Source of the DNA: Leeuwenhoekiella sp.
GTDB lineage: Bacteria > Bacteroidota > Bacteroidia > Flavobacteriales > Flavobacteriaceae
Direction: 5' to 3'
Assembly (NCBI GenBank): GCA_002708845.1
Contig: PAPI01000039.1
Location: 40,334-104,333, forward strand
DNA: 64,000 nucleotides
In this document: positions 18,745 to 32,802 of the stretch, one piece after another
Position numbering within the stretch: the stretch's first letter is position 1
Layout of the letters: every line of letters starts with the position of its first letter
The notes under the pieces: generated by a model
What the model was told of the DNA's origin: nothing
Seen by the model: only the letters and a program-made list of their open reading frames with translations
Database searches by the model: none
Translations under genes and position numbers: made by a program

Positions 18745-19281
18745 ATGAAAAAGATAGTACTTCAAATCTTTTTAGTAATCTCCTTATTTGCTTGCAAAAA
18801 CGATGATGATAATGCCAATAAGAATCCTTTATCTCAATTACCACCTAAAACGCAGACTGGTGAGAATACGTTTGGTTGTCTTTTGGATGGAGAGCCTTTT
18901 ATACCTGGTGGTAGAATAAATCCATTAGATTGTTTTTACCAATTTTTGGATGGAGAGTATTATTTTTCTGTACAAGGGAGTAATAGGGATAGAGATGGTA
19001 TTAATCGTAGAATATCAATTGGAACTGAGAATTTAGAGTTAAGTGAAGGTACGACATACCCTCTATTGGAACAGGAAGATGGTAAGGCAAATGGCACTTT
19101 CTTTTATGGCACTTTCAATAGCGACACTTCAATAAATAATACTGGTGAGTTGACTATCACGAGGCTTGATACAGAAAATCAAATCATTTCTGGGACATTT
19201 TGGTTCGATGTAATTCATCCATATACAAACGAGATAGCAAAAATACGAGAAGGTCGTTTTGATATGCAATACAGTAGATAA
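18745..19281 (+). CDS. Surface lipoprotein, tandem family copy 1
   Basis: The 178-aa product has a lipoprotein signal (I-S-L-F-A-C) followed by K-N-D-D-D. An acidic stretch just after the lipid-bearing Cys is the export signal that sends lipoproteins to the cell surface in Bacteroidota. The mature part begins with T-Q-T-G-E-N-T-F-G-C-L and has a second conserved Cys about 25 residues later. It ends in S-G-T-F-W-F ... E-G-R-F-D-M. The same layout is found in the three following genes, so this is the first of four tandem paralogues in one operon (12-bp gap to the next). I know this motif pattern from flavobacterial hypothetical proteins but not a function. Confidence 0.8.
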   Translation: MKKIVLQIFLVISLFACKNDDDNANKNPLSQLPPKTQTGENTFGCLLDGEPFIPGGRINPLDCFYQFLDGEYYFSVQGSNRDRDGINRRISIGTENLELSEGTTYPLLEQEDGKANGTFFYGTFNSDTSINNTGELTITRLDTENQIISGTFWFDVIHPYTNEIAKIREGRFDMQYSR

Positions 19282-19293
19282 GTTAAAACTGCT

Positions 19294-19839
19294 ATGAAAA
19301 AGACAATTTTCCTCTTATTCTGTATGTTTTTTATAATCTCCTGCAAAAGCGATGATGATAGTAATCTTTCCCCTATCGAACAACTTCCTTCAGAGAGTAC
19401 CATCGGGGCGAACACAGCAGGCTGTTTGGTAAATGGGAAAGTTTTGATACCAAAGGGAAATGCAAATGAATCTACACTAAGATGTCAATATGCTAAAAGA
19501 GGAGATGAATATACATTTATACTATTTATAAACGAAAATACTAATCCATCCAAATCTGTTCGACTTCTTTATAGTCAAAATTATCCTTTGACAGAAAATA
19601 AAGCGATCCCCTTAACAATTCCAAATGTCAAACAATCGAGTTGGGGAGATTATTTAATCTCTGCTGGTTCACTTGGTAGATTCTCTACTAATGAGAATTA
19701 TAAGGGACAACTGCTAATTCTGGCTTTGGATGAGAAAAGACGAATTATTTCCGGCACATTCTCATTTAAAGCAGTCAATGATCAGGGTGAAATCGTCGAG
19801 GTCTCCGATGGCCGCTTTGATATGCGCTATATTCCTTAA
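19294..19839 (+). CDS. Surface lipoprotein, tandem family copy 2
   Basis: This 181-aa paralogue has the lipobox I-I-S-C followed by K-S-D-D-D. It is the most divergent of the four in the central part. The conserved N-terminal motif has changed to I-G-A-N-T-A-G-C-L-V-N-G, but the paired Cys residues and the C-terminal I-I-S-G-T-F-S-F ... D-G-R-F-D-M are kept. It lies 12 bp after copy 1 and 16 bp before copy 3. No function can be assigned. It is a small beta-rich extracytoplasmic protein by composition. Confidence 0.8.
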   Translation: MKKTIFLLFCMFFIISCKSDDDSNLSPIEQLPSESTIGANTAGCLVNGKVLIPKGNANESTLRCQYAKRGDEYTFILFINENTNPSKSVRLLYSQNYPLTENKAIPLTIPNVKQSSWGDYLISAGSLGRFSTNENYKGQLLILALDEKRRIISGTFSFKAVNDQGEIVEVSDGRFDMRYIP

Positions 19840-19855
19840 TTTATAATCCTATTAA

Positions 19856-20383
19856 ATGAAAAAAGCGGTTTTCTTCTTATTCTATATGTTTTTAATAGTC
19901 TCCTGCAATAAGGATGACGATGGCTGTAGGGGAGTAGATTGTTTACCACCTAAAACACAGACTGGTGAAAATACGTTTGGCTGTCTTTTAGATGGTAAGC
20001 CTTTCATTCTTAAAGGAGGAGTAAACCCTCTTGATTGTGTATATCAATTAATTGATGGTAAATGGTATTTTCAACTGCAAGGAAACAATGAAGATGAAAA
20101 CTTTTTAGGAAGAGCAATCATAATCAATACTATTGATAAAGAAATAGAGGAAGGTGCTTCCTATGATTTAGTTGAAGAGAAAGCTGGCAACGCTTATGCA
20201 ATATTCAGTAACAATACCATTTTTTCATTTACAAGCAGTGAAAATCCAGGCGAATTGTATATCTCAAAGTTAGATATGTCAAATCAAATAGTATCTGGAA
20301 CATTTTCATTTGAAATAGTTGATAATGAGGGCAATTTGCGCCGGATAACCGAAGGAAGATTTGATATGAGATTTACACGATAA
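19856..20383 (+). CDS. Surface lipoprotein, tandem family copy 3
   Basis: The 175-aa product has the lipobox I-V-S-C, then N-K-D-D-D-G-C. Its 5' end is a mosaic. A 43-bp block around the lipobox (19899-19941) is identical to copy 4. The next 53 bp (19943-19995) differ from copy 1 at only four positions, all silent. The rest is diverged from both. It keeps the Cys pair and the C-terminal S-G-T-F-S-F ... E-G-R-F-D-M motif. It is cotranscribed with its neighbours by spacing. Function unknown. Confidence 0.8.
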   Translation: MKKAVFFLFYMFLIVSCNKDDDGCRGVDCLPPKTQTGENTFGCLLDGKPFILKGGVNPLDCVYQLIDGKWYFQLQGNNEDENFLGRAIIINTIDKEIEEGASYDLVEEKAGNAYAIFSNNTIFSFTSSENPGELYISKLDMSNQIVSGTFSFEIVDNEGNLRRITEGRFDMRFTR

Positions 20384-20480
20384 AATATTATAAAATGAAA
20401 TGGAAAATTTTCCTCATTATCTTTACCTGTTTCCTAATCTCCTGCAATAAGGATGACGATGGCTGTAGGGGAGTAGATTG
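19899..20480 (+). repeat. 43-bp identical direct repeat in lipoprotein copies 3 and 4
   Basis: Positions 19899-19941 and 20438-20480 are identical over 43 bp, covering the lipobox and the N-K-D-D-D-G-C-R-G-V-D-C segment. The flanking coding sequence is clearly diverged, which suggests gene conversion or a recent unequal exchange rather than simple duplication. Confidence 0.85.
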
Positions 20481-20922
20481 CTTACCTATCGCGACGCAAA
20501 CGGGAGCAGGTACTTTTGGGTGTTTGGTGAATGGGGAACCTTTTGTGGATAATAGTGGAAGATTTAATTGTTTTTATCAGCTAGTTGACAATAAATATTA
20601 TTTTAATATCTCTCCAACATTCAAAAGTAAAAAACTTGTCGAGCTTGATTTGGGTAGCATAGGAATCGATTTGGAAAAAATAAAAAAATTTTCATTAAAT
20701 GATTTTTCTAGTGGCGAAGGTGGTGGTGCGGCCTTTTTTATATCAGGTGAAGGTCGAAATATTTCAACCAATTCAAATTATACTGGAAATTGCATCATTA
20801 ATAAATTTGATAACGAAAACAATATTGTTTCAGGAACTTTTGAATTTCAGGTGTTTGACGAAATTACGCAAACCTTATACACAATTACCGAAGGCCGCTT
20901 TGACGCCAAATTCACGGAGTAA
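20395..20922 (+). CDS. Surface lipoprotein, tandem family copy 4
   Basis: This 175-aa product is the last of the tandem family and lies 11 bp after copy 3. It has lipobox L-I-S-C followed by N-K-D-D-D-G-C, the T-Q-T-G-A-G-T-F-G-C-L motif, the second Cys in C-F-Y-Q, and a C-terminal V-S-G-T-F-E-F ... E-G-R-F-D-A. A Gly/Ser-rich loop with G-E-G-G-G near residue 107 is peculiar to this copy. Local base composition is AT-rich compared with the xylan locus to the left. Function unknown. Confidence 0.8.
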   Translation: MKWKIFLIIFTCFLISCNKDDDGCRGVDCLPIATQTGAGTFGCLVNGEPFVDNSGRFNCFYQLVDNKYYFNISPTFKSKKLVELDLGSIGIDLEKIKKFSLNDFSSGEGGGAAFFISGEGRNISTNSNYTGNCIINKFDNENNIVSGTFEFQVFDEITQTLYTITEGRFDAKFTE

Positions 20923-21135: not shown

Positions 21136-22755
21136 TTAAAAATCAAAACGCTGTGGACCTCCTCGCCGAATGTCTTCATTAGCGTAAGATTCAAATTTTT
21201 CAAAGTTTTTACGGAACGCATTTGACAGTTTAAACGCGGCCTTGTAATATGCTGCATCATCATCCCAGGTTTTACGTGGACTCAATACCTCATCAGGAAC
21301 TCCGGGGCAGGTTCTGGGTTGCGCAACTCCAAATACGGAATGAATATGGTAGTTTTCATATTTATATTCAGGATCAATGCTTCCATCAAGAATTGCATTA
21401 ATCATAGCTCTTGTATATTTAAGTTTTATACGTGTACCTACGCCGTAAGCACCTCCGGTCCATCCGGTATTGATCAACCATACAAGAGCACCGCTGCGCT
21501 TGATTTTCTCATTTAACATTTCGGCATACTTGGTGGGGTGTAAAGGCATAAAAGGGGCTCCGAAACAAGCTGAAAATGAGGGGAGGGGTTCTACAATTCC
21601 TGCTTCGGTACCGCCAAGTTTTGATGTGTATCCTGAAATAAAGTGATAGGCAGCCTGACTTGCAGTCAGTTTTGAAACGGGCGGTAATACGCCAAAAGCA
21701 TCTGCGGTAAGGAAAAAGATATTTTTTGGGGTGCCTGCTACAGAGGGGATCTGTATATTGTCAATATGGTTAATGGGATAACTTACCCGGGTATTTTGAG
21801 TAATCGAGGTATCTTCAAAATCGACTACCCCATTTTCATCCATAATTACGTTTTCTAAAATAGCACCTTTCTTAATCGCGCCATAAATTTCGGGTTCCTG
21901 CTCTTCAGAAAGATTGATCACTTTTGCATAGCAACCGCCTTCAAAATTAAAAACACCGTTTTCTGAAGTCCAGCCGTGCTCATCATCACCGATTAGCTTC
22001 CGATTTTGGTCTGTAGAAAGCGTTGTCTTACCGGTGCCCGAAAGGCCAAAAAAGATTGCGGTATCGCCATCCTCTCCCACATTTGCAGAACAATGCATGG
22101 GCAGTGCATCCCTGTAAACGGGTAAGATAAAATTCAATGCTGAGAAAATACCTTTTTTGATTTCGCCGGTATACCCGGTTCCTCCTATTAGTGCAATTTT
22201 CTTTGTGAAATTTAATATTGCAAAATTATGTTGTCTGGTACCATCTACTTCCGCATCAGCCATAAAGCCGGGAGCATTGATAACCGTCCACTCCGGGGTA
22301 AAATCTTTAAGCTCATCTTCAGTAGGTCTTAAAAACATATTATAGGCAAACATGTTAGACCAGGGGTATTCATTGATTACCCTTATGTTCAAACGATACT
22401 CTTTTTCTGCACATGCATAAGCATCCCTAACATAAAGTTCCTTATCATTCAGATATTCAATTACCTTATCATAAAGCGCATCAAAAGCATCACTTTCAAA
22501 AGGAATATTAATGTTACCCCACCATACTCTATTTGCAGTAATATCATCTTTTACGATAAAACGATCCATAGGTGACCTGCCGGTGAACTCTCCCGTATTT
22601 ACAGCAAGAGCTCCAAGGGAGGATTCTTTGCCCATGCCTTTGTCAATTGTGATTTCATGCAATTGCTCAGGACTTAACTGATAGTGTATGTTTTGGTGTG
22701 TAATTCCGTATTCAATTAAAGATGGAGATTTGTCTGATTTGACCTGATCTATCAT
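21136..22755 (-). CDS. pckA: ATP-dependent phosphoenolpyruvate carboxykinase
   Basis: PckA converts oxaloacetate and ATP to phosphoenolpyruvate and CO2 in the cytoplasm, opening gluconeogenesis. The 539-aa length is typical. The kinase-1a/P-loop G-L-S-G-T-G-K-T-T-L-S has Lys243, and the following L-I-G-D-D-E-H-G-W is the kinase-2/metal block. The early R-S-P-x-D-R-F substrate site (T-G-R-S-P-M-D-R) is present. The gene ends in a clear hairpin terminator. It lies 273 bp after the tartrate/D-malate dehydrogenase gene on the same strand, so C4 or C3 acids from that pathway could be turned into sugar precursors here. It may well be a core gene with its own promoter, although no perfect promoter was found. 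Confidence 0.97.
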   Translation of the reverse strand: MIDQVKSDKSPSLIEYGITHQNIHYQLSPEQLHEITIDKGMGKESSLGALAVNTGEFTGRSPMDRFIVKDDITANRVWWGNINIPFESDAFDALYDKVIEYLNDKELYVRDAYACAEKEYRLNIRVINEYPWSNMFAYNMFLRPTEDELKDFTPEWTVINAPGFMADAEVDGTRQHNFAILNFTKKIALIGGTGYTGEIKKGIFSALNFILPVYRDALPMHCSANVGEDGDTAIFFGLSGTGKTTLSTDQNRKLIGDDEHGWTSENGVFNFEGGCYAKVINLSEEQEPEIYGAIKKGAILENVIMDENGVVDFEDTSITQNTRVSYPINHIDNIQIPSVAGTPKNIFFLTADAFGVLPPVSKLTASQAAYHFISGYTSKLGGTEAGIVEPLPSFSACFGAPFMPLHPTKYAEMLNEKIKRSGALVWLINTGWTGGAYGVGTRIKLKYTRAMINAILDGSIDPEYKYENYHIHSVFGVAQPRTCPGVPDEVLSPRKTWDDDAAYYKAAFKLSNAFRKNFEKFESYANEDIRRGGPQRFDF

Positions 22756-23028
22756 AAGAAGTGTTTTTAGTTATTTTAGGTGTAGCTGATAAGCGAAAAC
22801 GTTTGCTAAACCCAATATTCTTTTAATCTCTTTATTATAGGATGCAGGTTTTGGTAAATACCCCTATCCATTTTGGAATGAATCTCGAAGTAAAGCTTCC
22901 GGAAACGTTAACAGCCAGACGGATTTTTACGGTCTCTAACAACACTAAATCAGTATCAATACGTTACTACAGCACAAAATTCAGGTCGTTTTCAGGATCT
23001 TTCTTGCAAAAAGTCCGTTTGTCAACCC

Positions 23029-24087
23029 TTATTTGGTTTTTATGTTTTGAATTAAAGCATCTGTTACGCCTACAGTTGAAGCATTTCCGCCTAAATCTGG
23101 CGTTAAAACTTTACCCTCACCCGTAAGTTTCTCAATGGCATTTTCTATCAGTTCAGCAGCTTCATGTTCACCAAAATGCGTCAACATCATCGCCGCAGTC
23201 CAAACAGAAGCGATGGGATTTGCAACATTCTTACCAGCAATATCTGGTGCGCTGCCGTGTACGGGTTCAAACATGCTCGGAAACTCTTTTTCCAGGTTTA
23301 AATTGGCCCCAGGGGCAATACCCATACCACCTATTACAGCAGGCCCCAAATCGGAAAGGATATCACCAAAAAGATTGCTTGCTACAACTACATCAAATTC
23401 GTGAGGTCTTGTTACAAAATGAGCGGTCAGAATATCTATGTGAAACTGAGATTGTACTACGTCTGGATACAATTTACCTATGGCCTTAAATCGCTCGTCC
23501 CAATAGGGCATGGTGTGAATGATACCATTGGATTTGGTTGCACTCGTCAACTTCTTATTTCTTTTGTTTGCCAATTCGTACGCATACTTCATTACCCGGT
23601 CAACCCCTCGTTTTGTAAATATGCTCTCCTGCACGACCAACTCATGTTCAGTACCTTCATTCAACCTTCCCCCGATTGACGAATACTCGCCCTCGTTATT
23701 CTCTCGAACAATGTAGAAATCTATGTTTCCAGGGTTCTTCAACGGAGAGTCAACTCCCTTAAGCAGTTTTACAGGTCTGAGGTTCACATATTGCTGAAAG
23801 GTTCTTCTGATAGGAACAAGTAAGCCCCAAAGGGAAACGTGGTCCGGAACTCCGGGATAACCAACAGCCCCAAGAAAGATACCATCACTATCTCTCAGTT
23901 TTTTCAGGCCGTCATCATCCATCATTTTTCCGTGGTTTTTATAGTATTCACACGAATAGTCATAGTGTTTATATGAAATTTCAAAACCACACTCAACCGC
24001 TACGGTATTGAGAAGCCTTATTGATTCAGGTACAACCTCTTTTCCTATTCCGTCTCCCGGTATTACTGCAACTTCATACTTTTTCAT
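23029..24087 (-). CDS. Tartrate dehydrogenase / D-malate dehydrogenase (decarboxylating)
   Basis: The 352-aa enzyme belongs to the isocitrate/isopropylmalate dehydrogenase family (G-D-G-I-G-K-E near residue 11). The subgroup is shown by D-H-V-S-L-W-G-L-L-V-P-I-R-R, Y-V-N-L-R-P-V, E-N-N-E-G-E-Y-S-S-I-G-G-R and S-A-T-K-S-N-G, which match TtuC/DmlA-type enzymes rather than LeuB. Members oxidise tartrate or D-malate with NAD, often with decarboxylation to pyruvate or glycerate, using Mn or Mg held by the N-L-F-G-D-I-L-S-D Asp residues. It follows the hydrolase gene by 1 bp, so the two form one operon. Which hydroxy acid is the real substrate cannot be told from sequence. Confidence 0.88.
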   Translation of the reverse strand: MKKYEVAVIPGDGIGKEVVPESIRLLNTVAVECGFEISYKHYDYSCEYYKNHGKMMDDDGLKKLRDSDGIFLGAVGYPGVPDHVSLWGLLVPIRRTFQQYVNLRPVKLLKGVDSPLKNPGNIDFYIVRENNEGEYSSIGGRLNEGTEHELVVQESIFTKRGVDRVMKYAYELANKRNKKLTSATKSNGIIHTMPYWDERFKAIGKLYPDVVQSQFHIDILTAHFVTRPHEFDVVVASNLFGDILSDLGPAVIGGMGIAPGANLNLEKEFPSMFEPVHGSAPDIAGKNVANPIASVWTAAMMLTHFGEHEAAELIENAIEKLTGEGKVLTPDLGGNASTVGVTDALIQNIKTK

Positions 24088-24088
24088 T

Positions 24089-24982
24089 CTAATTTTTCGG
24101 TTTTAAAGGTTTAAAAAAATCAATTAAAGCTTCGGTTGTTTCAGTAGGAGCTTCTTCCGGTAAATAATGCCCGCAGGGCAACCCCAATCCAGTCACATCA
24201 TCAGACCAGATTTTCCATTCTTCAATAACATTATATTTTCGTCCAACAAACGCTTTTTCGCCCCAAAGGCAGAGAACAGGACAGGCTAATTTTTTACCGG
24301 TATCAATATCAAACTGGTCTAACTCCAGGTCTATTGTTGCAGAAGCTCTATAGTCTTCACAACTGGAATGTATAGTCTCAGGATTAAAGCAGCGTAAATA
24401 GTGTTGTCTTGCTTCTTGAGTTATTGCGTTGTCATCCCTGCCCCATTGCCCCAATTTTTTGTTCAGGAAATATTCCGGGTCTGCACCTATCATTTTTTCC
24501 GGAATATCATAAGGTTGAATGAGGAAAAACCAATGATAATAGGCCGTTGCAAATCCCATATCGGTTGTTTTGTACATCGTGTAAGTAGGAGCGATGTCCA
24601 GAACTGCCAATTTCAAAATAACTTCAGGGTAATCTAAAGCCATACGGTGGCCCACTCTGCCACCCCGGTCATGACCGGCCAAATAGAATTGATCAAACCC
24701 AAGAGATTGCATCAATAAAATTTGATCCTTACCCATTTCGCGTTTTGAATAGGGGGAATGATCGGCGTCGGTGGGTGGATTACCACTATCTCCATAACCT
24801 CTTAAATCTGAAGCTACAACCGTAAACGATTCTGCAAGTTGGTCTGCTATTTTATGCCAGATAAAGTATGTCTGTGGATAGCCGTGTAATAAAAGTAGGG
24901 GAGGACCACTACCACCAATAACGTAGTTTATTTCAACGCTGTTAACCTGTTTAATATGATTTTTAAATGCTTTGAAAATCAT
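24089..24982 (-). CDS. Alpha/beta hydrolase, fluoroacetate dehalogenase-like
   Basis: The 297-aa protein resembles the Rhodopseudomonas fluoroacetate dehalogenase (RPA1163). Its active site lines up fully with what I know of that enzyme: nucleophile Asp105 in G-H-D-R-G-G-R, carboxylate-binding Arg106 and Arg109, acid Asp129, halide pocket His150, Trp151 and Tyr211 (C-E-D-Y-R-A), and the base His272. Epoxide hydrolases share the Asp nucleophile but not this H-W plus double-Arg pattern. The expected reaction replaces a halogen alpha to a carboxylate with hydroxyl, with inversion. The gene sits between a dicarboxylate transporter and a hydroxy-acid dehydrogenase. Real activity on halogenated acids is inferred. 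Other carboxylate-bearing esters or epoxides remain possible. Confidence 0.82.
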   Translation of the reverse strand: MIFKAFKNHIKQVNSVEINYVIGGSGPPLLLLHGYPQTYFIWHKIADQLAESFTVVASDLRGYGDSGNPPTDADHSPYSKREMGKDQILLMQSLGFDQFYLAGHDRGGRVGHRMALDYPEVILKLAVLDIAPTYTMYKTTDMGFATAYYHWFFLIQPYDIPEKMIGADPEYFLNKKLGQWGRDDNAITQEARQHYLRCFNPETIHSSCEDYRASATIDLELDQFDIDTGKKLACPVLCLWGEKAFVGRKYNVIEEWKIWSDDVTGLGLPCGHYLPEEAPTETTEALIDFFKPLKPKN

Positions 24983-24988
24983 AACTTT

Positions 24989-26458
24989 TTATTTCTTCAA
25001 ATGCTTAGGGAAACTATCTATTGCCATGTCCCATAATTCCGGAAGCAGGAAATAAACAAATAGAGTGAGTACAACTATAGAGATTATATTCATTAAAAAG
25101 CCTTTGTTCACCATATCGGGTATTCTCAGATATCCCGAACCAAATACTACCGCATTAGGCGGTGTGGCAACGGGCAACATAAATGCACAGGACGCTGCAA
25201 CAGCCGCACCTACCATGAGAACAAAAGGATGTACATCTATATTTAACGCCATTGGTGCCAAAACGGGTAACAACATGGCTGTGGTAGCCAGGTTTGAAGT
25301 AATCTCGGTTAAAAAATTGACAGCCGCTATCAGGATGAGCAACAGTAAAAATAGATGAAGCCCTGAGAGACTTCCCATTTGAGAACCTATCCATATTGCT
25401 AAACCACTGGACTCAAAACCTTGTGCGAGAGCCATTCCACCTCCAAAAAGTAAGATGATTCCCCAGGGCATTTTTACAGCTTCATCCCAATTAATCAAAG
25501 TTCTCGTCCTTTTCTTATTGGGGATAAGAAATAATAAAATGGAAAAAAATACCGCTATAATTGTATCATCAAGAGCAGGGAAAATCGCTTGTAACAGATA
25601 AGATCTTGTAATCCAGCAAAAAGCGGTCAACCCAAAAACCAGGGCGACCATTTTTTCTTCATAACTGATCTTTCCTAAATTGTTCAACAAGCGTTTAATT
25701 TCTGCTTTACCTCCCGGGAACTCCTTTTGCTTAAATGTAAATGCAGACCGGGTAAGATATGCCCAACAAATAAATAAGAGTATTAGGGAAATAGGCAAAC
25801 CAAACATAAACCACTGCATAAACGTAATTTCATAGCCATAGGTATCAGAAATTACCCCGGCCAACACTAAATTGGGAGGAGTACCTATGAGTGTCGCAAC
25901 ACCACCAATTGATGCACTGTACGCGATGGCGAGCATAAGCGCCTTGCCAAAAGTCTGGTTTTCATCTTCAACAGTATCGGGGTTATCCTGTAATTGTTTT
26001 ATGATGGCAACCCCTATAGGCAACATCATAACCGATGTTGCTGTATTGGAAATCCACATAGATAAAAATGCCGTTGCACACATAAATCCCAAAATGATCA
26101 TACGCACGTTTGAGCCTATGATGTTGATGATATTGAGTGCAATACGCTTGTGAAGATTCCATTTTTCAATAGCGATGGCAATAATAAAGCCACCCATATA
26201 CAGGAATATATATTTATGTCCAAAGGAAGCTGCCGTGGTTTCCAGATCCAATCCGCCAGACAACGGAAACAGTACCAGGGGTAGCAAGGCAGTAATTGAA
26301 ATGGGTAAAGCTTCGGTTATCCACCAGATGGCGACCCAGGCAGTACCAGCCAAAATCGCAACACCTTCTTCAGAGAGTCCTTTAGGATGGATAAATAAAT
26401 AAATCAGAAAAAAGGCAAGTGGTCCCAGAATGAGTCCGATTATTTTCTTTGTATTCAT
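24989..26458 (-). CDS. DASS-family sodium:dicarboxylate symporter
   Basis: This 489-aa inner-membrane protein has about eleven to twelve hydrophobic segments. It carries the two Ser-Asn-Thr-type substrate loops of the divalent anion:sodium symporters (VcINDY type): S-N-T-A at 137-140, and T-S-N-L-A-T near residue 387. The L-P-V-A-T-P-P-N-A-V block near the C-terminus is also typical. Known members import succinate, malate, tartrate or citrate. It lies 6 bp before the hydrolase gene and 1 bp after the AEC transporter gene, so uptake and breakdown of an acid are encoded together. Confidence 0.9.
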   Translation of the reverse strand: MNTKKIIGLILGPLAFFLIYLFIHPKGLSEEGVAILAGTAWVAIWWITEALPISITALLPLVLFPLSGGLDLETTAASFGHKYIFLYMGGFIIAIAIEKWNLHKRIALNIINIIGSNVRMIILGFMCATAFLSMWISNTATSVMMLPIGVAIIKQLQDNPDTVEDENQTFGKALMLAIAYSASIGGVATLIGTPPNLVLAGVISDTYGYEITFMQWFMFGLPISLILLFICWAYLTRSAFTFKQKEFPGGKAEIKRLLNNLGKISYEEKMVALVFGLTAFCWITRSYLLQAIFPALDDTIIAVFFSILLFLIPNKKRTRTLINWDEAVKMPWGIILLFGGGMALAQGFESSGLAIWIGSQMGSLSGLHLFLLLLILIAAVNFLTEITSNLATTAMLLPVLAPMALNIDVHPFVLMVGAAVAASCAFMLPVATPPNAVVFGSGYLRIPDMVNKGFLMNIISIVVLTLFVYFLLPELWDMAIDSFPKHLKK

Positions 26459-26459
26459 A

Positions 26460-27365
26460 TCAATAGATTATAAAATAAATTAGAATTACGGTCAAAATAG
26501 ATATAGGTATTCCCAGGCCGGGCATTAAAAATGATAAATCAGGTTTTAGACCCAGTTCTGCCGCAACGATCGCAATGGTATTCATAGAACCAAGGCCGGC
26601 ACCAAGCACACATACCTTTGCAACTAACGAATTATGTTCTCCCATAAAAAGGAAAAGTAAAAATATAAGAAGTGGTGCTATTATAAGTTTATAAGATTGT
26701 CCCAAAAGGAAATTTTTTTTATTGCTTTTTACAGATTTCATACTGATGTTAAGGCCTATGGTAAATAACGCCAGAAATGAAAATGGTTTTGCCAGTATGG
26801 CAAGTATCTCATTTATAGAGTCAGGAAATTTGGTATTGGTAAATAGGAATATAAATGCCAGCCCCATGGCTAAGAACGGAGGAAATACAATAATATCCTT
26901 TATAAGCCTGAGGGGACTCGTTTGCTTTTGGGCATACCAAAAACCAGTAAAGACACCTACCGTGTTACAGACGACAAACGTACCTGCGAGGGAAAGAATA
27001 ATACCCATAGCAAGACCTTTTGATCCTAAAAACATCTCAAAAATGGGAAAACCCGCAAATGAAACACTCCCTATTCCTGAGGTCATAATGAGTACGGCTC
27101 GTGTTTTTCTTTCAATAGGTTTTATCAAATTAACCAGTTCAAAGAAAAGAAAGGAAAAGCCATAAATAATCCACGGTGATACTATTAACCAGATATGTTT
27201 CTTAGAAAATTCAATCTCCGGGAGATAGCGTAGGGTTAGAATTGGGATGAAAAAATTAATAAGTAGTTTGTTGAGTTTTCCGCCTAAGCCTTCGGGCGTA
27301 ATGCTGTATCGTTTACAGAATACGCCTAACAGTAAAAACGCAAAAAGTGCTACTGTTTTTTCCAT
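26460..27365 (-). CDS. AEC-family transporter (auxin efflux carrier superfamily)
   Basis: The 301-aa protein has ten predicted membrane segments with a cytoplasmic loop in the middle, as in AEC transporters, some of which carry malate or malonate. I chose the ATG at 27365 (M-E-K-T-V-A-L-F). The next upstream in-frame start at 27410 would translate a stable RNA hairpin and give a non-hydrophobic N-terminus. The gene is 1 bp before the DASS gene and follows the TonB receptor gene by 72 bp. Direction of transport is not evident. With DASS next to it, one could act as importer and the other as exchanger. Confidence 0.82.
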   Translation of the reverse strand: MEKTVALFAFLLLGVFCKRYSITPEGLGGKLNKLLINFFIPILTLRYLPEIEFSKKHIWLIVSPWIIYGFSFLFFELVNLIKPIERKTRAVLIMTSGIGSVSFAGFPIFEMFLGSKGLAMGIILSLAGTFVVCNTVGVFTGFWYAQKQTSPLRLIKDIIVFPPFLAMGLAFIFLFTNTKFPDSINEILAILAKPFSFLALFTIGLNISMKSVKSNKKNFLLGQSYKLIIAPLLIFLLFLFMGEHNSLVAKVCVLGAGLGSMNTIAIVAAELGLKPDLSFLMPGLGIPISILTVILIYFIIY

Positions 27366-27378
27366 AACTTTAAAAGAA

Positions 27379-27398
27379 GTGGCTCCCGTAGGAGCCAC
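27379..27398 (-). promoter_or_regulatory. Stable C(UACG)G tetraloop hairpin between receptor and transporter genes
   Basis: On the minus strand GTGGCTCC-TACG-GGAGCCAC forms a perfect 8-bp stem closed by a UNCG-type loop, one of the most stable RNA tetraloops. It is followed by TTCTTTT. It lies 39 bp after the receptor stop codon and 13 bp before the AEC start. It may act as a partial terminator, an mRNA-end stabiliser or a processing site that sets unequal expression. Confidence 0.7.
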
Positions 27399-27437
27399 AA
27401 CCAGAAACAATCTAACTCAAACAACGCAATTAGATTC

Positions 27438-30400
27438 TTAAAAATTAATATTCAAACTTGTATAGTAGTAGGCTCCATTAAACCCAAATTGATTTGAGTT
27501 TCTTGAATAAGGAATCTGACCACTTGAATAGTTAGAGGCTTGACCTACAGCACCATCTCTTGTGTTATTCCACTTATCTGGGTACGTATCAAAAATATTG
27601 TTGCTACCTATAGACCATGTGAAATTGTCACTGAATCTAAAGGAGATTGATAAATCAACAAGGGCTTTATCACTAAATACCTGTACGAGTCTATCTCCAG
27701 AATCACTTTCGATTACGTTAGAATCCTCAAGGGATAAACCACCACTTGCTGCCTGAACTTCTCCAAAGTGTGTCATACGACCTATAAATCCAAATCTTCC
27801 TGTAGTATAATTAAGGCTGGCCAGAAGTTTGTATCGAGGCTGTGCAACTTCGATTAGCTGGGTTGCAACCTCACCCAATAATTTAAAATCTGGATCACCG
27901 CCAGCGGTAAGTTCAGCAGGCGCAGCTTGTTGACTTACTACCTCCGTTTGGTTTAAGGTCAAAGCGAGACTACCTGAGAAATTACTTTTCTCAGAAAATC
28001 GTTCCTTATAAGCGGCAACGATATCTAAACCTGTAGTTTTGGTACTAATCGCATTTGTGAAAAAACGTATCTCTCTTGCTTCTGGAAACAGCGCAGCAAC
28101 TGCTGGAAAATCACCTGTATCCAATCTTTCGGTAATAACAATTCGATCATTAATATCTATACGGAAAGCATCTGCGGTAAATAATAATTTACCACCTAAT
28201 AATTTTGCAGTAACACCCAGATTATAATTATTTGAAATTTCTGCCTCTGGATCTTTAACACCTAATTGAGCCAATCTAGGGTCGTCACTAGATACTTGCT
28301 TAGTAATTACAATGACATCATTTTGTACCGTTGAAGTATTTACCCGGTTACCTATTTGCGCTACAGATGGCGCTCTAAAACCTCTGTTGTAAGAACCTCT
28401 TAATGCAAGGTTTTCAGTTAATTTATAACGCCCTGCCAGTTTACCGGATAAGTTACCTCCAAAGTCACTGTAATTTTCATAACGTACAGCTGCTGCAACT
28501 AATAACTTTTCAGAAAAATCTTTTTCGACGTCAACATACATAGCAAAATTGCTTCTTGACAAATCATTTTCGTCAATATCAGCGATACCTGGTCTTGCAC
28601 TGGATCCTATTGCCTTGCCTTCTGTAGCTAATGGTCCAACTTCAAAAGATTCTGGAGAACCTTGCTTTAATAAAAATCTATCTGTACGATACTGTGTTCC
28701 AAAGGCTAAATTGAAGGTTTCACTAAGGGCTTTAGACATGTTGAACTCTCCTATCGTTTGTCTAAAGTCATATCTACCCACCTTAAATTCTGTAGGAGAT
28801 GCACTACCTAGAGAAGGGTTTACCGTGTTGTTAGCAAAAAGATCCAGATAGTTTCTACCGTAACTAAGGCTTAAGTCATAGTTCCAACCTTCTCGTGTAA
28901 TTCTATCCACACCTACCACGGTTGAAACATCTACAGAAGAACCTGGAAGTTCTGGTACAAAACCATCAGGAAAAATACCTAAAGCTGAATTTCCATAATT
29001 TGAAGGTGCTCTGAAAAAGCCGTAGGCTAAAATATCTTTTCGTGATACCCCTCCAAAACTGTATAACTTCCAGCCTTTTTCACCTATCGGCAATCCGGCG
29101 TTGTAAAATGCCTGATAGGTGTCATTCTCATTTGCACCATAATTACCTACAACAACATCTCCCTGAGGGTAATAACCTCTGTCTTCTCTTGGATTAGCTG
29201 TATCATAAGGGAATTCTGGAGTAGGACCGGTTTGATCGTAGTCCTCTGGTGCTACAGGATATATTCTTCCTGTATAGGTATCAGACCTGTTAGTTCCTGA
29301 AAAAGTAAACATTTCCAGAGTTGTGTTAAAATAACTGCCCTCTTTACCTAAGCCAAAACCATAATTGATACTGTGTTTAAAGGTTATACCATCGCCTTCT
29401 TTATGAATACCTGCTGTACCGATATAGGTGCCTTCTCCTACGGTTTTCTTTAAGTCTAAATTGATAATACCTGATATCGCGTCTGAACCGTACTGTGCAG
29501 CACCACCGTCACGCAATACCTCAATTCTGCTAAGTGCACCTGATGGGATGGAGTTTATATCTGTAACTATGGTACCTAAACCTGGAGAAACATTTAAATT
29601 CAGGGTTGAAAATTGATGTCTTCTTTTACCATTGATTAATACTAAGGATTGGTCAGGAGACATCCCTTTTAGCGTCGCAGGTTCTGCATAGTTTGTAGTA
29701 CCGTTAACGCCATATTTTGCAGAGTTAAAGGATGGGGAGGAGAACTGAATTTGCTGTCCCAAGTCTGTTTGACCTGTAAGCGCCAATTCTTTTGCCTCTA
29801 CCACGTCTACAGGTACCGGACGGTTAACATCTGTTCTGGGTTTACCTCTTGATCCAACAAGAACCACATCGTCAAGTTGCGCGGCAGCAGCTTCTAATTG
29901 CACATCAATAGTATCTTTACCGGTAATGTCTATTTCAGCAGTTTTAAAGCCTACATAGGATATGACCAGAATATTCTTATCCGCAGGGACTTCAATTGTA
30001 AAATTTCCATCAAAATCTGTCGTAGCTCCAATGGTGGTTCCTTTTACCAGGATATTTGCTCCAGGCAACGGGTACCCTCCATCGTCTTTAATTATTCCCG
30101 TTACAACAGTTTGTACTATTACCCGATTGGGTTTTTCCTTTTTGGTAAGGACAATTTGTTTCCCATTGATGACAAAATTAAAATGAGCTATATCAGAAAG
30201 TTTTTCAAGCACTTTTTCAACGGTCTCCTTATTAGCCGAAAAAGAAATTCTCTGAACTACATCGATTTCGTTCACATTATAAAAAAAACGGTAATCAGTT
30301 TGTGATTCAATCTCACCCAGTATTTTATTCAATTGGACCTCTTTGACGTCAAATTCAATTTTTACCTGGGAGAAAACTGTATTAGCTGATAACTGAAATA

Positions 30401-30500
30401 AAGCAAAAAATGCTATGACGAGACTGATCTTCATTTTAAAGTCCATTTTTTTTCCTTGCTCCTCTTTTTGAAGAGCAAGGTTTCTTCCATGATTTTTCAT
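27438..30500 (-). CDS. TonB-dependent outer membrane receptor with STN domain
   Basis: The 1020-aa receptor has a signal peptide (about 20-44, ending V-F-S-Q) and an STN signalling domain (about 46-118) that should contact the FecR protein encoded upstream. A carboxypeptidase-regulatory-like domain (about 130-215; G-A-N-I-L-V-K-G-T), a plug (about 225-345; I-E-V-L-R-D-G-G-A-A-Q-Y-G-S) and a beta-barrel ending in aromatic residues follow. There is no SusD partner next to it, so it resembles FecA-like trans-signalling receptors more than polysaccharide SusC proteins. An alternative start at 30446 would remove 18 charged residues and place the ATG just after a hairpin. The ligand is unknown. The downstream operon suggests an organic acid or conjugate. 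Confidence 0.9.
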   Translation of the reverse strand: MKNHGRNLALQKEEQGKKMDFKMKISLVIAFFALFQLSANTVFSQVKIEFDVKEVQLNKILGEIESQTDYRFFYNVNEIDVVQRISFSANKETVEKVLEKLSDIAHFNFVINGKQIVLTKKEKPNRVIVQTVVTGIIKDDGGYPLPGANILVKGTTIGATTDFDGNFTIEVPADKNILVISYVGFKTAEIDITGKDTIDVQLEAAAAQLDDVVLVGSRGKPRTDVNRPVPVDVVEAKELALTGQTDLGQQIQFSSPSFNSAKYGVNGTTNYAEPATLKGMSPDQSLVLINGKRRHQFSTLNLNVSPGLGTIVTDINSIPSGALSRIEVLRDGGAAQYGSDAISGIINLDLKKTVGEGTYIGTAGIHKEGDGITFKHSINYGFGLGKEGSYFNTTLEMFTFSGTNRSDTYTGRIYPVAPEDYDQTGPTPEFPYDTANPREDRGYYPQGDVVVGNYGANENDTYQAFYNAGLPIGEKGWKLYSFGGVSRKDILAYGFFRAPSNYGNSALGIFPDGFVPELPGSSVDVSTVVGVDRITREGWNYDLSLSYGRNYLDLFANNTVNPSLGSASPTEFKVGRYDFRQTIGEFNMSKALSETFNLAFGTQYRTDRFLLKQGSPESFEVGPLATEGKAIGSSARPGIADIDENDLSRSNFAMYVDVEKDFSEKLLVAAAVRYENYSDFGGNLSGKLAGRYKLTENLALRGSYNRGFRAPSVAQIGNRVNTSTVQNDVIVITKQVSSDDPRLAQLGVKDPEAEISNNYNLGVTAKLLGGKLLFTADAFRIDINDRIVITERLDTGDFPAVAALFPEAREIRFFTNAISTKTTGLDIVAAYKERFSEKSNFSGSLALTLNQTEVVSQQAAPAELTAGGDPDFKLLGEVATQLIEVAQPRYKLLASLNYTTGRFGFIGRMTHFGEVQAASGGLSLEDSNVIESDSGDRLVQVFSDKALVDLSISFRFSDNFTWSIGSNNIFDTYPDKWNNTRDGAVGQASNYSSGQIPYSRNSNQFGFNGAYYYTSLNINF
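30454..30480 (-). promoter_or_regulatory. Hairpin at the 5' end of the receptor gene
   Basis: On the minus strand CCTTGCTC and GAGCAAGG pair around an 11-nt A-rich loop. The right arm (GGAGCAAGG) is the only Shine-Dalgarno-like sequence before the alternative ATG at 30446, so the structure could hide that start. If translation begins at 30500, the hairpin lies inside codons 7-16. Confidence 0.5.
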
Positions 30501-30548
30501 AATTTTAGTTGTGTTTAGATTGTTAGAATTATTACTGATGATCTAGTA

Positions 30549-30581
30549 TAAAAAAGGGGGTGTTCGCAGCACTTCCTTTTT
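30549..30581 (-). terminator. Possible attenuator between the FecR and receptor genes
   Basis: On the minus strand an imperfect hairpin pairs AAAAAGG with CCTTTTT, with a short inner GTG/CAC helix. It ends in a T-run about 10-40 bp after the FecR stop codon. It would lower read-through into the receptor gene. The inner mismatches make it a weaker terminator than the others in the window. Confidence 0.45.
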
Positions 30582-30585
30582 CTTT

Positions 30586-31749
30586 TTAATTAGAAATTGT
30601 TATTATGTTATTGTTTTTTTCGTAAGTGAATGGCGTGCTTAAGGCAATAGTTTTTAAAATTGTTTCTAAGTTTTCGTTATCAAATTCTCCTTTAAAAACT
30701 TCGTCGTTCAGATTGTTAGCTTTATTAATGAATTTCACATCGTAAAGGCGCTCAAGCTTTATGAGGATTTCTGAAAATTTTAGATTATTTACAATCAGTT
30801 TATCCTGCATCCAGGCGGTGTAAATTTCTGTATCAACCAAGGCCTTATTGAGTTTGCCATCTTTTTTACTATAAGAAGCCTGATAGTTAGGGGTTAGTTT
30901 CATTTCTTCTTCCGGTGAGCTATTGTTATAAACACTTACGGCTCCCTCTACCAAAGTTGCAGTTACAGACTCGTTAGTATCATAGGAGGAAACATTGAAT
31001 TTGGTACCTAAAACCTTTACATCTATATCATTCGCATTAACAATGAAAGGCTTTTTGGCGTTTTTGGTTACTTCAAAGAAGCCTTCGCCCTCGAGAAATA
31101 CTTTTCGCTCTGCTGTTGAACTCACAAATTGCTGCGGAAATCGCAACTTAGAGCCAGAGTTCAGATACACTGTCGTGCCGTCTGACAAGATGATCTTAAA
31201 TTTTTCTCCGTAGGGAATATATATTTCGTTATAGACTAATTTTGCTGAAGCTGAAGATTCGTTTGATACGAATGAAAGGGAATTATTGTTATTCTTAGCA
31301 ATAACGGTTCCGTCTTTATCTTTAATCTGGTTGTCATCTTTAGTACTGAGTACTTTTTTGGAACCATCAGCAAGGGTTATAACAATTTGATCTGTTGTAT
31401 CAAGAACCTTTTCTTGTGTCACGACCTGTTCATTTACAAAGCCATCGTTAGTGTACTTATTCACCTGATACCCTATAGTAAATAAAAGGGCAAAAACTGC
31501 AGCGTACTTGAGTAATTGATACCCTAACCTGTGAGTTTGCTTCTTAGCTTTTGTAGCTGTTATAAATTTCTGATAAGCTTTTTCGGTATCAAAATTTATC
31601 GAGCTATCGGGATTGTATTTTTTTATTTCCTTTTTAAAGAGCTCTAAATTAGCAGGATCTTCCTGAACCCAATTTTTCAATTCAAGCTTTTCCTTACTGG
31701 AAATGGTTCCTTTTAAGAACTTATCAATAAGTGTTAATTCAACCTTCAT
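30586..31749 (-). CDS. FecR-family anti-sigma/sigma-regulator
   Basis: The 387-aa protein has a short cytoplasmic N-terminal segment that would hold the sigma factor (residues 1-77), one membrane helix (about 78-97), and a periplasmic FecR domain (about 180-285; L-S-D-G-T-T-V-Y-L-N-S-G-S and G-E-G-F-F-E-V). A C-terminal STN-like/DUF4974 domain (about 310-385; F-S-E-I-L-I-K-L-E-R) ends it. It relays the receptor's ligand-bound state to the sigma factor encoded divergently 99 bp away. It lies upstream of the receptor gene on the same strand. The full sigma, FecR, STN-receptor set makes a self-contained cell-surface signalling unit. Confidence 0.93.
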   Translation of the reverse strand: MKVELTLIDKFLKGTISSKEKLELKNWVQEDPANLELFKKEIKKYNPDSSINFDTEKAYQKFITATKAKKQTHRLGYQLLKYAAVFALLFTIGYQVNKYTNDGFVNEQVVTQEKVLDTTDQIVITLADGSKKVLSTKDDNQIKDKDGTVIAKNNNNSLSFVSNESSASAKLVYNEIYIPYGEKFKIILSDGTTVYLNSGSKLRFPQQFVSSTAERKVFLEGEGFFEVTKNAKKPFIVNANDIDVKVLGTKFNVSSYDTNESVTATLVEGAVSVYNNSSPEEEMKLTPNYQASYSKKDGKLNKALVDTEIYTAWMQDKLIVNNLKFSEILIKLERLYDVKFINKANNLNDEVFKGEFDNENLETILKTIALSTPFTYEKNNNIITISN

Positions 31750-31848
31750 TTATAGATATACTAAGTTTATTTACTCTATGATACAATTTTGATAAAAAAC
31801 CCCTATCTATTTTTAATTTTTATTAATTTAGAATTTCTGATATACTAA

Positions 31849-32385
31849 ATGGAGGACAAAAAATTATTAAAAAAGTTAAGGAAAGGAGATACCGCTGCGT
31901 ATAGATATTTGTTCTCAACATATTATACCTGGTTGTGTAATTATGTCTTAAAACTTTGTAATGATCCCAGTCTGGCAGAGGATATTGTGCAAGAGACGAT
32001 GGTTAACTTTTGGGAGAAACGAGACTCAATTTTAATAACGACGTCCTTGAAAAGCTACTTATTCCGTTCTTGTCACAACCAATTCTTACAACACATAAGA
32101 AAACAAAAAATAAAGTTTGATTTTTTGGATAATATACGATGGGAAGTCATCGCAAGTGCTCAGGAGGAATATAATACAACCAGAGATCGCGATTTAGAAA
32201 AATTAAATAGTCTTATAGATAAGCTGCCACCACGTTGTAAAGAGATTTTTATTAAAAATAAAATTCAGAAACAAAAGTATAAAGACATTGCTGTAGATAT
32301 GGGGATTTCAATTAAGACTGTTGAAAACCAAATGTCTAAAGCTCTTCATTTTCTAAAAGAGAATGCCAATTCATTCCTTCTTTAG
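31849..32385 (+). CDS. ECF sigma factor, FecI-like (Bacteroidota type)
   Basis: This 178-aa protein has sigma region 2 (about 20-70; A-E-D-I-V-Q-E-T-M-V-N-F-W-E) and region 4 (about 120-170; L-P-P-R-C-K-E-I-F ... K-D-I-A-V-D-M-G-I-S-I-K-T-V-E-N-Q). This is the typical layout for the sigma partner of FecR. It is transcribed away from FecR, from a shared 99-bp intergenic region. It probably drives the receptor and acid-utilisation operon, but the ECF promoter sequence could not be identified. Confidence 0.92.
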   Translation: MEDKKLLKKLRKGDTAAYRYLFSTYYTWLCNYVLKLCNDPSLAEDIVQETMVNFWEKRDSILITTSLKSYLFRSCHNQFLQHIRKQKIKFDFLDNIRWEVIASAQEEYNTTRDRDLEKLNSLIDKLPPRCKEIFIKNKIQKQKYKDIAVDMGISIKTVENQMSKALHFLKENANSFLL

Positions 32386-32682
32386 CCGGTGCCTTACCAT
32401 ACCAATCCATTACTCACACGACTGCCACCAGATTCTCTCTAAAGACTTTCATAAATACTATTTCTGAAGGTTTGAATTTGAGTTTCGGGTTCCTGCCAAT
32501 GAAAAAAGCTGATAATAAACGGAGTTCTTATCGATTTAAAATTTATTACTTAAATTCTTTAAGCTAATTAGTTCTGCTGAATTTTAAAATATTCATCTAA
32601 TGAAACTAGTTGACAAGCAGCTTTTTTAGTGTTCAAAGTTTTAAGTAGGGGAGTAAGCTGAAAAATTATTCAATTTTCAGCA
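32386..32682. other. Intergenic stretch without a recognised feature
   Basis: These 297 bp lie between the end of the sigma factor gene and the terminator of tRNA-Met. Both strands were read. No open frame of useful length, tRNA-like fold or long repeat was seen. Confidence 0.6.
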
Positions 32683-32719: not shown

Positions 32720-32728
32720 TAAAAATTG

Positions 32729-32802
32729 TAGCGAGAGGGGGGCACGATCCCCCGACCTCCGGGTTATGAATCCGACGCTCTAACCAGCTGAGCTACCTCG
32801 CC
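32729..32802 (-). tRNA. tRNA-Met (CAT), elongator type
   Basis: Read on the minus strand, 74 nt fold as a cloverleaf. The acceptor stem begins GGCGAGG (G1 pairs U72), the D arm is GCTC/GAGC, the anticodon loop is TTCATAA, the variable loop is AGGTC, and the T stem is GGGGG/CCCCC. The discriminator is A73 and no CCA is encoded. G2-C71 and C3-G70 are elongator Met identity pairs, and the Y11-R24 D-stem pair argues against an initiator. Oddities are an A31-C39 mismatch at the top of the anticodon stem and a T loop reading ATCGTGC. Confidence 0.92.

Follow-up and report, generated by a model that had tools for sequence, protein, structure and literature searches.

A candidate surface-sensed operon for C4 dicarboxylate catabolism, possibly of an epoxysuccinate, in Leeuwenhoekiella

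The window, a stretch of 64,000 nucleotides from a Leeuwenhoekiella sp. contig (PAPI01000039.1), carries a run of eight genes (Table 1), all found in the order that an earlier note on this DNA had described, with a sigma factor gene divergent from the rest; the protein families named there were also confirmed with Pfam and NCBIfam models. The four genes said to be spaced by 1–6 bp are indeed tightly packed, with gaps of 1 bp (TTC/HYD), 6 bp (HYD/DASS) and 1 bp (DASS/AEC), and the remaining spacings are 27 bp (AEC/receptor), 85 bp (receptor/FecR) and 273 bp (PEPCK/TTC). A motif scan of positions 22500–32500 was uninformative, with 24 promoter-like sites where 29.5 were expected and 9 terminator-like sites where 7.3 were expected.

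Table 1. Genes of the locus, with positions in the window and the basis of each assignment.
Gene	Position	Strand	Basis
PEPCK (ATP-type PEP carboxykinase)	21136-22755	-	Pfam, NCBIfam
TTC, tartrate/D-malate dehydrogenase (decarboxylating) family	23029-24087	-	TIGR02089, PRK08194, 3FLK
HYD, Asp-nucleophile alpha/beta hydrolase, fluoroacetate dehalogenase family	24089-24982	-	active-site residues, similarity
DASS, Na+/dicarboxylate-type symporter	24989-26458	-	TIGR00785
AEC-type membrane transport protein	26460-27410	-	PF03547
TonB-dependent receptor (CarbopepD_reg_2, plug, barrel, borderline STN)	27438-30500	-	Pfam
FecR anti-sigma factor	30586-31749	-	FecR, FecR_C (Pfam)
ECF sigma factor, Bacteroidota type, divergent from operon	31849-32385	+	TIGR02985

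The sigma factor scored 147.8 bits on TIGR02985 (cut-off 126.4) and the FecR protein 59.0 and 61.1 bits on FecR and FecR_C, both above the Pfam cut-offs; the STN domain of the receptor, at 27.7 bits, fell just below Pfam's 28.4. A SusCD reading of the receptor was rejected, as its score on OMP_RagA_SusC was 134.2 bits (cut-off 368.25) and no SusD-sized ORF lies beside it, the minus-strand ORFs of at least 100 aa between TTC and FecR all being the unit's own. DASS scored 312.6 bits on TIGR00785 (cut-off 198.6), with SLC13A2 and Na(+)/dicarboxylate cotransporter 3 as its best solved matches, and in related loci its first motif is SNT and its second SNL or SNV (6/6). AEC reached 39.3 bits on PF03547 (cut-off 25.7) and had no relative among solved structures, where its one match was due to chance (E 0.53); these structures gave no useful clue to the ligand of either the receptor or AEC. 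Judged by gene content, the unit appears equipped to sense a C4 acid at the cell surface, take it up and break it down, as the earlier note had proposed.

TTC passes the curated cut-offs for tartrate dehydrogenase (535.9 against 470.4 bits on TIGR02089 and 532.1 against 501 on PRK08194), and its best solved match is 3FLK, a tartrate dehydrogenase/decarboxylase (E 9.8e-126), in keeping with its proposed place in the tartrate/D-malate dehydrogenase family. Enzymes of this family also use D-malate. The possibility had been raised that TTC is specific for 3-isopropylmalate; a check of the sequence argued against this, and a LeuB identity was rejected, since TTC scored 242.4 bits on TIGR00169 (cut-off 353.2) and a separate LeuB-like paralogue is found on contig C1, within a run read as leuA-leuC-leuD-leuB. 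Given this paralogue, the cell does not have to rely on TTC as its 3-isopropylmalate dehydrogenase.

HYD is an alpha/beta hydrolase with a cap, the fold of the fluoroacetate dehalogenases (DehH1 of pUO1, RPA1163, FAc-DEX FA1 and Alr0039/NOS0089), with which it shares the catalytic Asp-His-Asp, and its numbering matches that of DehH1 at D105 and H272. The two arginines and the His/Trp/Tyr halide pocket are likewise common to HYD and these enzymes as they are described in PMC11022551. The complete active site that had been claimed for HYD is present, comprising an Asp nucleophile, a His base, an Asp, two Arg and the His/Trp/Tyr pocket (D105, R106, R109, D129, H150, W151, Y211 and H272); all eight residues are kept between HYD and the assayed defluorinase Alr0039, at 58% identity, and they support HYD as an Asp hydrolase of the fluoroacetate dehalogenase type. 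The structure model of HYD was good when based on an alignment, and one predicted from the single sequence was of no use (pLDDT 30.5). On a tree whose rows included Alr0039, and not DehH1, RPA1163 or FAc-DEX FA1, the HYDs linked to TTC formed one clade apart from Alr0039 (25/28 rows, support 98/94), and the linkage label required 4 changes, compared with 21.6 in shuffles. We know of no assayed member of this clade. The eight catalytic positions were invariant in the alignment, in 25/25 linked and 57/57 unlinked rows, and being identical in both they do not allow an epoxide role to be read from the site. Residues specific to the linked HYDs (e.g. S58, S214, M142, Q179 and Y273, each in 25/25) are confounded with ancestry.

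The conservation of the gene order, which the earlier note had made a point to look for, was found in a set of 80 loci (L036–L115, with 3015 ORFs, each 80 aa or longer): seven genes (sigma factor, FecR, receptor, AEC, DASS, HYD and TTC) recur in identical order and orientation in five of them (L036, L037, L038, L039 and L050), the sigma factor gene being at the corresponding place in 5/80, and as it recurs in this way the arrangement exceeds chance. HYD lies next to TTC in 24/80 loci, with gaps of −19 to 131 bp (median 7.5), and a dicarboxylate-type carrier accompanies the pair in six of these 24. In the Saprospiraceae sample, HYD was present in 11 of the 12 TTC-positive genomes. The divergences of HYD and TTC were correlated, with r 0.84 uncorrected for shared ancestry (231 pairs; of the 24 linked loci 22 were used, L059 having been left out and one more lost to a length filter). 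Taken together, HYD and TTC almost certainly serve one pathway. There are exceptions to this pairing: no TTC adjoins HYD in L041, L057 and L065, three rows of its clade, the two genes lie on separate contigs in one genome (G745), and in another (G714) TTC occurs without HYD, amid genes of plant-polysaccharide type. Three Saprospiraceae loci with HYD relatives of 50–53% identity (L172, L173 and L174) had no TTC in the stretch examined, and a phylum sample of 395 genomes gave HYD at E <= 1e-60 in no genome but the one from which the window comes. TTC relatives of about 50% identity, seen in 7 of 184 sampled Flavobacteriaceae, were rejected as members of the unit, the three that were inspected sitting in a different operon.

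PEPCK had been drawn into the pathway, and this part of the proposal found no support. The gene is a second genome copy, 69% identical to that on contig C9, and it follows the unit in Leeuwenhoekiella only (the window, L036 and L037); no PEPCK occurs in the 8.9 kb past the unit of L050, the sole fair test outside Leeuwenhoekiella, as in L038 and L039 the contig stops within about 1 kb of TTC. PEPCK was therefore rejected as a conserved pathway member. The adjoining second copy in Leeuwenhoekiella would make more sense if the product were pyruvate or oxaloacetate than if it were glycerate.

Glycerate kinase, which a tartrate product would call for and a D-malate product would not, adjoins HYD-TTC in 2/24 linked loci compared with 0/56 others, and this adjacency favours a tartrate route over one through D-malate. 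In one locus (L043) the kinase and a TetR-type regulator are divergent from HYD-TTC-DASS, and in the other (L046) a truncated kinase gene directly follows TTC; the chance expectation for that much flank is about 0.09 (P about 0.004), if kinases are assumed to occur at 1.1 per 4.5 Mb. Among the HYD-TTC genomes, 21/24 have a kinase (one, G699, as fragments only) and none was detected in three (G686, G693 and G702). The kinase was found in 136/299 Flavobacteriaceae and in 5/5 that were HYD-positive, of which one has its HYD truncated (p 0.019), and in 186/298 Saprospiraceae and 16/17 that were HYD-positive (p 0.003), by Fisher tests that take no account of kinship or of genome size. In the genome of the window the kinase is on another contig, beside a permease read as GntP-type; this, the small number of linked loci with a kinase, the truncated copy and the three genomes without one weigh against the tartrate route.

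Conversion of a halosuccinate to D-malate and of an epoxysuccinate to tartrate had been put forward as equals; with the kinase found in two relatives the tartrate route gained support, and the halosuccinate route is the less well supported. In the latter, imported 2-halosuccinate would lose its halide through HYD, with inversion, and TTC would decarboxylate the resulting D-malate to pyruvate, a scheme consistent with the intact dehalogenase residues, with the second PEPCK in Leeuwenhoekiella and with the assayed activity of the closest solved relative of HYD, Alr0039/NOS0089, a defluorinase (PMC11022551). However, it leaves the glycerate kinase at L043 and L046 and the kinase enrichment unexplained, and the unit holds no halide-related family except HYD's own. 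We regard this scheme as unlikely, and it also counts against it that we are aware of no natural origin for 2-halosuccinate. The possibility that HYD opens another C4 acid, such as the halohydrin 3-halomalate, to tartrate, with TTC and the kinase acting as in the tartrate route, would leave the dehalogenase chemistry unaltered and draw on the same gene evidence for its product, but no abundant natural 3-halomalate is known to us and we consider it quite improbable. DehH1 on pUO1 has a fluoroacetyl-CoA thioesterase (FlK) and the fluoride exporter CrcB as neighbours, whereas those of HYD are TTC and DASS; phmmer searches with the pUO1 proteins, one reference context and not a strict family trait, found no homologue of CrcB or the thioesterase at E 0.01 or E 10 among the 3015 ORFs, in which a DehH1 query gave 82 matches, and no fluoride-resistance context for HYD was found. 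That HYD detoxifies fluoroacetate or haloacetate and stands by chance beside an operon for tartrate or malate breakdown with which it has nothing to do is very unlikely, given these missing neighbours, the 24 loci in which HYD adjoins TTC, the single clade of such HYDs, and the fact that glycolate, the product of fluoroacetate hydrolysis, is not to our knowledge a TTC substrate.

The reading that we prefer, plausible from the sequences if just short of probable, is that the unit works as an inducible operon that breaks down an unusual C4 dicarboxylate, an epoxysuccinate being the likeliest, with tartrate formed from it; the best candidate is trans-epoxysuccinate of fungal origin. The TonB receptor would bind the acid or its complex and import it to the periplasm, signalling by way of FecR to the divergently encoded sigma factor, and the dianion would enter the cytoplasm via DASS, perhaps with help from AEC. 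R106 and R109 of HYD may then hold one carboxylate while D105 makes an inverting attack on the carbon next to it; H150, W151 and Y211 would steady the leaving oxygen (the halide in known enzymes), and water activated by H272 and D129 would free the product, meso-tartrate in the case of trans-epoxysuccinate. TTC is predicted to oxidise and decarboxylate the tartrate to D-glycerate, which glycerate kinase could pass to glycolysis; the kinase gene adjoins the pair in two relatives and lies elsewhere in this genome. The sensing genes resemble FecIRA-type signalling in having a sigma factor, FecR and a TonB receptor, here with a borderline STN domain, but unlike FecIRA they stand with catabolic enzymes and a carrier of dicarboxylate type. 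So small an acid is an unusual ligand for a TonB receptor, which counts against the epoxysuccinate reading.

A trans-epoxysuccinate hydrolase (EC 3.3.2.4) converts trans-epoxysuccinate to meso-tartrate, the step proposed for HYD. Older work in J. Bacteriol. is said to describe trans-epoxysuccinate use by a Flavobacterium and a tartrate epoxidase. Our literature search, which may have missed a relevant paper, found none on a trans-epoxysuccinate hydrolase, and none on epoxysuccinate and tartrate in Flavobacterium, on haloacetate dehalogenase together with tartrate dehydrogenase, or on tartrate dehydrogenase and haloacids in Flavobacteria. TTC is alike in family to the tartrate dehydrogenase/decarboxylase (3FLK; TIGR02089) and differs in its partner, a dehalogenase-family hydrolase, which we do not know as the neighbour of any other tartrate dehydrogenase. 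The cis-epoxysuccinate hydrolases CESH[L] and CESH[D] turn epoxysuccinate into tartrate, chemistry akin to that proposed for HYD. L-2-haloacid dehalogenases are HAD-fold enzymes with no relationship to HYD. CESH[L] resembles L-2-haloacid dehalogenases at about 30% identity (PMC6429283). Other papers state that fungi accumulate trans-epoxysuccinate, which is listed for biotransformation to meso-tartaric acid (PMC8230503), that fungi make (2S,3S)-trans-epoxysuccinate from fumarate (PMC12568646) and that whole bacterial cells for making L- and meso-tartaric acid were described in 1969 (PMC10138715); in PMC8244358, the tartrate beside a fluoroacetate dehalogenase is a crystallisation salt.

We tentatively extend this proposal to the HYD clade across Bacteroidota, whose members may be epoxysuccinate hydrolases that, with TTC and glycerate kinase, make up a full pathway from epoxysuccinate through meso-tartrate to D-glycerate, placed in Leeuwenhoekiella and Aquimarina under a dedicated surface-sensing TonB receptor. 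Similarity alone is a poor ground for annotating proteins of this kind as haloacetate dehalogenases. If the proposal is true, an enzyme family studied for defluorination would be tied to a conserved natural pathway, and the role of a 'dehalogenase' clade would be explained where organofluorine is absent. It would also name genes for the bacterial use of a fungal overflow acid, provide new enzymes for producing meso-tartrate and add a TonB/FecR-sensed small-acid system to the Bacteroidota.

All eight genes that the earlier note had listed were found at the positions it gave, their family assignments were upheld, and the short gaps it claimed were confirmed at 1 bp between the tartrate/D-malate dehydrogenase (TTC) and the Asp-nucleophile alpha/beta hydrolase (HYD), 6 bp between HYD and the Na+/dicarboxylate-type symporter (DASS) and 1 bp between DASS and the membrane transport protein AEC. 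The genome carrying them is 4.35 Mb in 39 contigs; among the matches listed, its nearest named relatives are Leeuwenhoekiella aestuarii (L036, HYD 95% identical) and L. polynyae (L037, 90%).

Location of features in and around the gene unit
Feature	Position	Strand	Observation
ORF of 1095 aa	window 14037-17324	-	Read as holding many DxDxDG-like repeats; equal in length to an ORF beyond the PEP carboxykinase gene in L036 and L037
Four tandem ORFs, 175-181 aa	window 18745-20922		N-termini read as lipoprotein-like; direct DNA repeats between them of 79 nt (62-85% identity), 147 nt (74%) and 40 nt (65-70%)
ATP-type PEP carboxykinase	window 21136-22755		Beside the unit
Second ATP-type PEP carboxykinase	G000:C9:15057-16454		69% identical to the first
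tRNA-Met (anticodon cat)	window 32728-32802	-	Downstream of the sigma factor gene
Truncated HYD adjoining DASS	L123 (G052) 6580-8333

Conservation was assessed in the loci of the best 80 of 571 HYD relatives from a scan of genome contigs. TTC adjoined HYD in 24 of the 80 (gap −19 to 131 bp, median 7.5) and was not found in the other 56 by tblastn at E 1e-40; the pairing is frequent, yet not strict. Twenty-three linked loci were Bacteroidota-like and one came from a Deinococcales MAG (L064); the 23 include L051, labelled Gammaproteobacteria, which is probably misbinned because it is nearly identical to L048. In L048, HYD-TTC is followed by genes for a DUF819 membrane protein, an amidohydrolase, an alpha-amylase, a luciferase-like monooxygenase and a sodium:solute symporter, and L051 has the same series, as judged from gene clusters. 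The full unit (divergent sigma factor, FecR, TonB receptor, AEC, DASS, HYD and TTC) was present in 5/80 loci (L036, L037, L038, L039 and L050). In a tree of 82 HYD rows, 25 linked rows and three unlinked ones (L041, L057 and L065, from Saprospiraceae or Lewinellaceae) formed one group with support of 98/94, apart from the other 54 rows, which included the assayed defluorinase Alr0039. The pair in L123 looks like a decaying copy or an assembly error, since its HYD is truncated and TTC was not found in that stretch.

Full-length HYD (at least 67% identity) occurred in 4/299 sampled Flavobacteriaceae genomes, with one further truncated copy. HYD at E <= 1e-60 occurred in 17/298 Saprospiraceae (the family of the L040 genome) and in 1/395 genomes across the phylum, the window's own. 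TTC, sought at E <= 1e-110, was present in 12 of 184 Saprospiraceae genomes. Eleven of these also have HYD, and in the remaining one (G714) TTC sits among genes of plant-polysaccharide type; G745 carries HYD and TTC on separate contigs. Of the nine positives among 184 Flavobacteriaceae, two were the window and G144 (96%), and the other seven stood at about 50%. A second TTC family, about 50% identical, lies in Flavobacteriaceae operons (L197, L198 and L199); its neighbours in L197 are a GntR regulator, a cyclase-family protein, a four-carbon acid sugar kinase-type protein and an MFS carrier, and L198 and L199 have genes of similar size.

TTC passed both NCBIfam tartrate dehydrogenase models, with 3FLK as top match. 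It need not serve leucine synthesis, because a LeuB-like paralogue (33% identity) sits in a gene run read as leuA, leuC, leuD, leuB. The Pseudomonas putida enzyme reportedly converts meso-tartrate to D-glycerate, (+)-tartrate to oxaloglycolate and D-malate to pyruvate. Decarboxylation of tartrate gives glycerate, whereas that of D-malate does not. In L043, where DASS is also present after TTC, a TetR-type regulator and a glycerate kinase gene lie divergently to HYD-TTC-DASS; in L046 a truncated glycerate kinase gene directly follows TTC. By chance 0.09 kinases would be expected in 377,570 bases (P ~0.004, assuming a density of 1.1 per 4.5 Mb). A tblastn search with the window genome's kinase (E 1e-3) gave no hit in the remaining 22 linked loci or in the 56 unlinked ones. 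The kinase was commoner in HYD-positive genomes than in their families, in tests that ignore relatedness and genome size: 5/5 (one HYD truncated) versus 131/294 other Flavobacteriaceae, and 16/17 versus 170/281 other Saprospiraceae, the seventeenth (G699) having fragments only.

Among proteins of solved structure, DASS comes closest to SLC13A2 and Na(+)/dicarboxylate cotransporter 3, which makes a C4 dicarboxylate the probable imported acid. A HYD that makes tartrate from such an acid by Asp attack points to epoxysuccinate or halomalate as substrate, and anti opening of a trans epoxide gives meso-tartrate. Several observations weigh against a tartrate route, however: the HYD catalytic residues fit epoxide and halide leaving groups alike, HYD probably retains some haloacid activity, the pairing with TTC is incomplete, the kinase adjoins HYD-TTC in two loci only, and the window genome's own kinase lies on another contig, beside a gene read as a GntP-type permease. 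The second-copy PEP carboxykinase beside the unit in Leeuwenhoekiella is also a better fit to pyruvate, the end product of the earlier scheme in which 2-halosuccinate is converted to D-malate; the data gave no support for the carboxykinase itself as a conserved member of the unit. The general idea of an acid pathway holds, but the kinase link makes the tartrate route likelier than the halosuccinate scheme. A fluoroacetate role for HYD is less likely than before, because the fluoroacetyl-CoA thioesterase (FlK) and CrcB that neighbour the fluoroacetate dehalogenase DehH1 on pUO1 had no homologue among 3015 ORFs of L036-L115 (phmmer, E 0.01 and E 10), whereas DehH1 gave 82 matches in the same run.

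No account of the conserved unit was found in the literature searched, in which trans-epoxysuccinate was covered in part. Two papers describe trans-epoxysuccinate as accumulated by fungi (PMC8230503) and the fungal (2S,3S)-trans-epoxysuccinate as made from fumarate (PMC12568646). The unit is real and conserved. On the tartrate route, HYD would open trans-epoxysuccinate to meso-tartrate, from which TTC would then yield glycerate for glycerate kinase.
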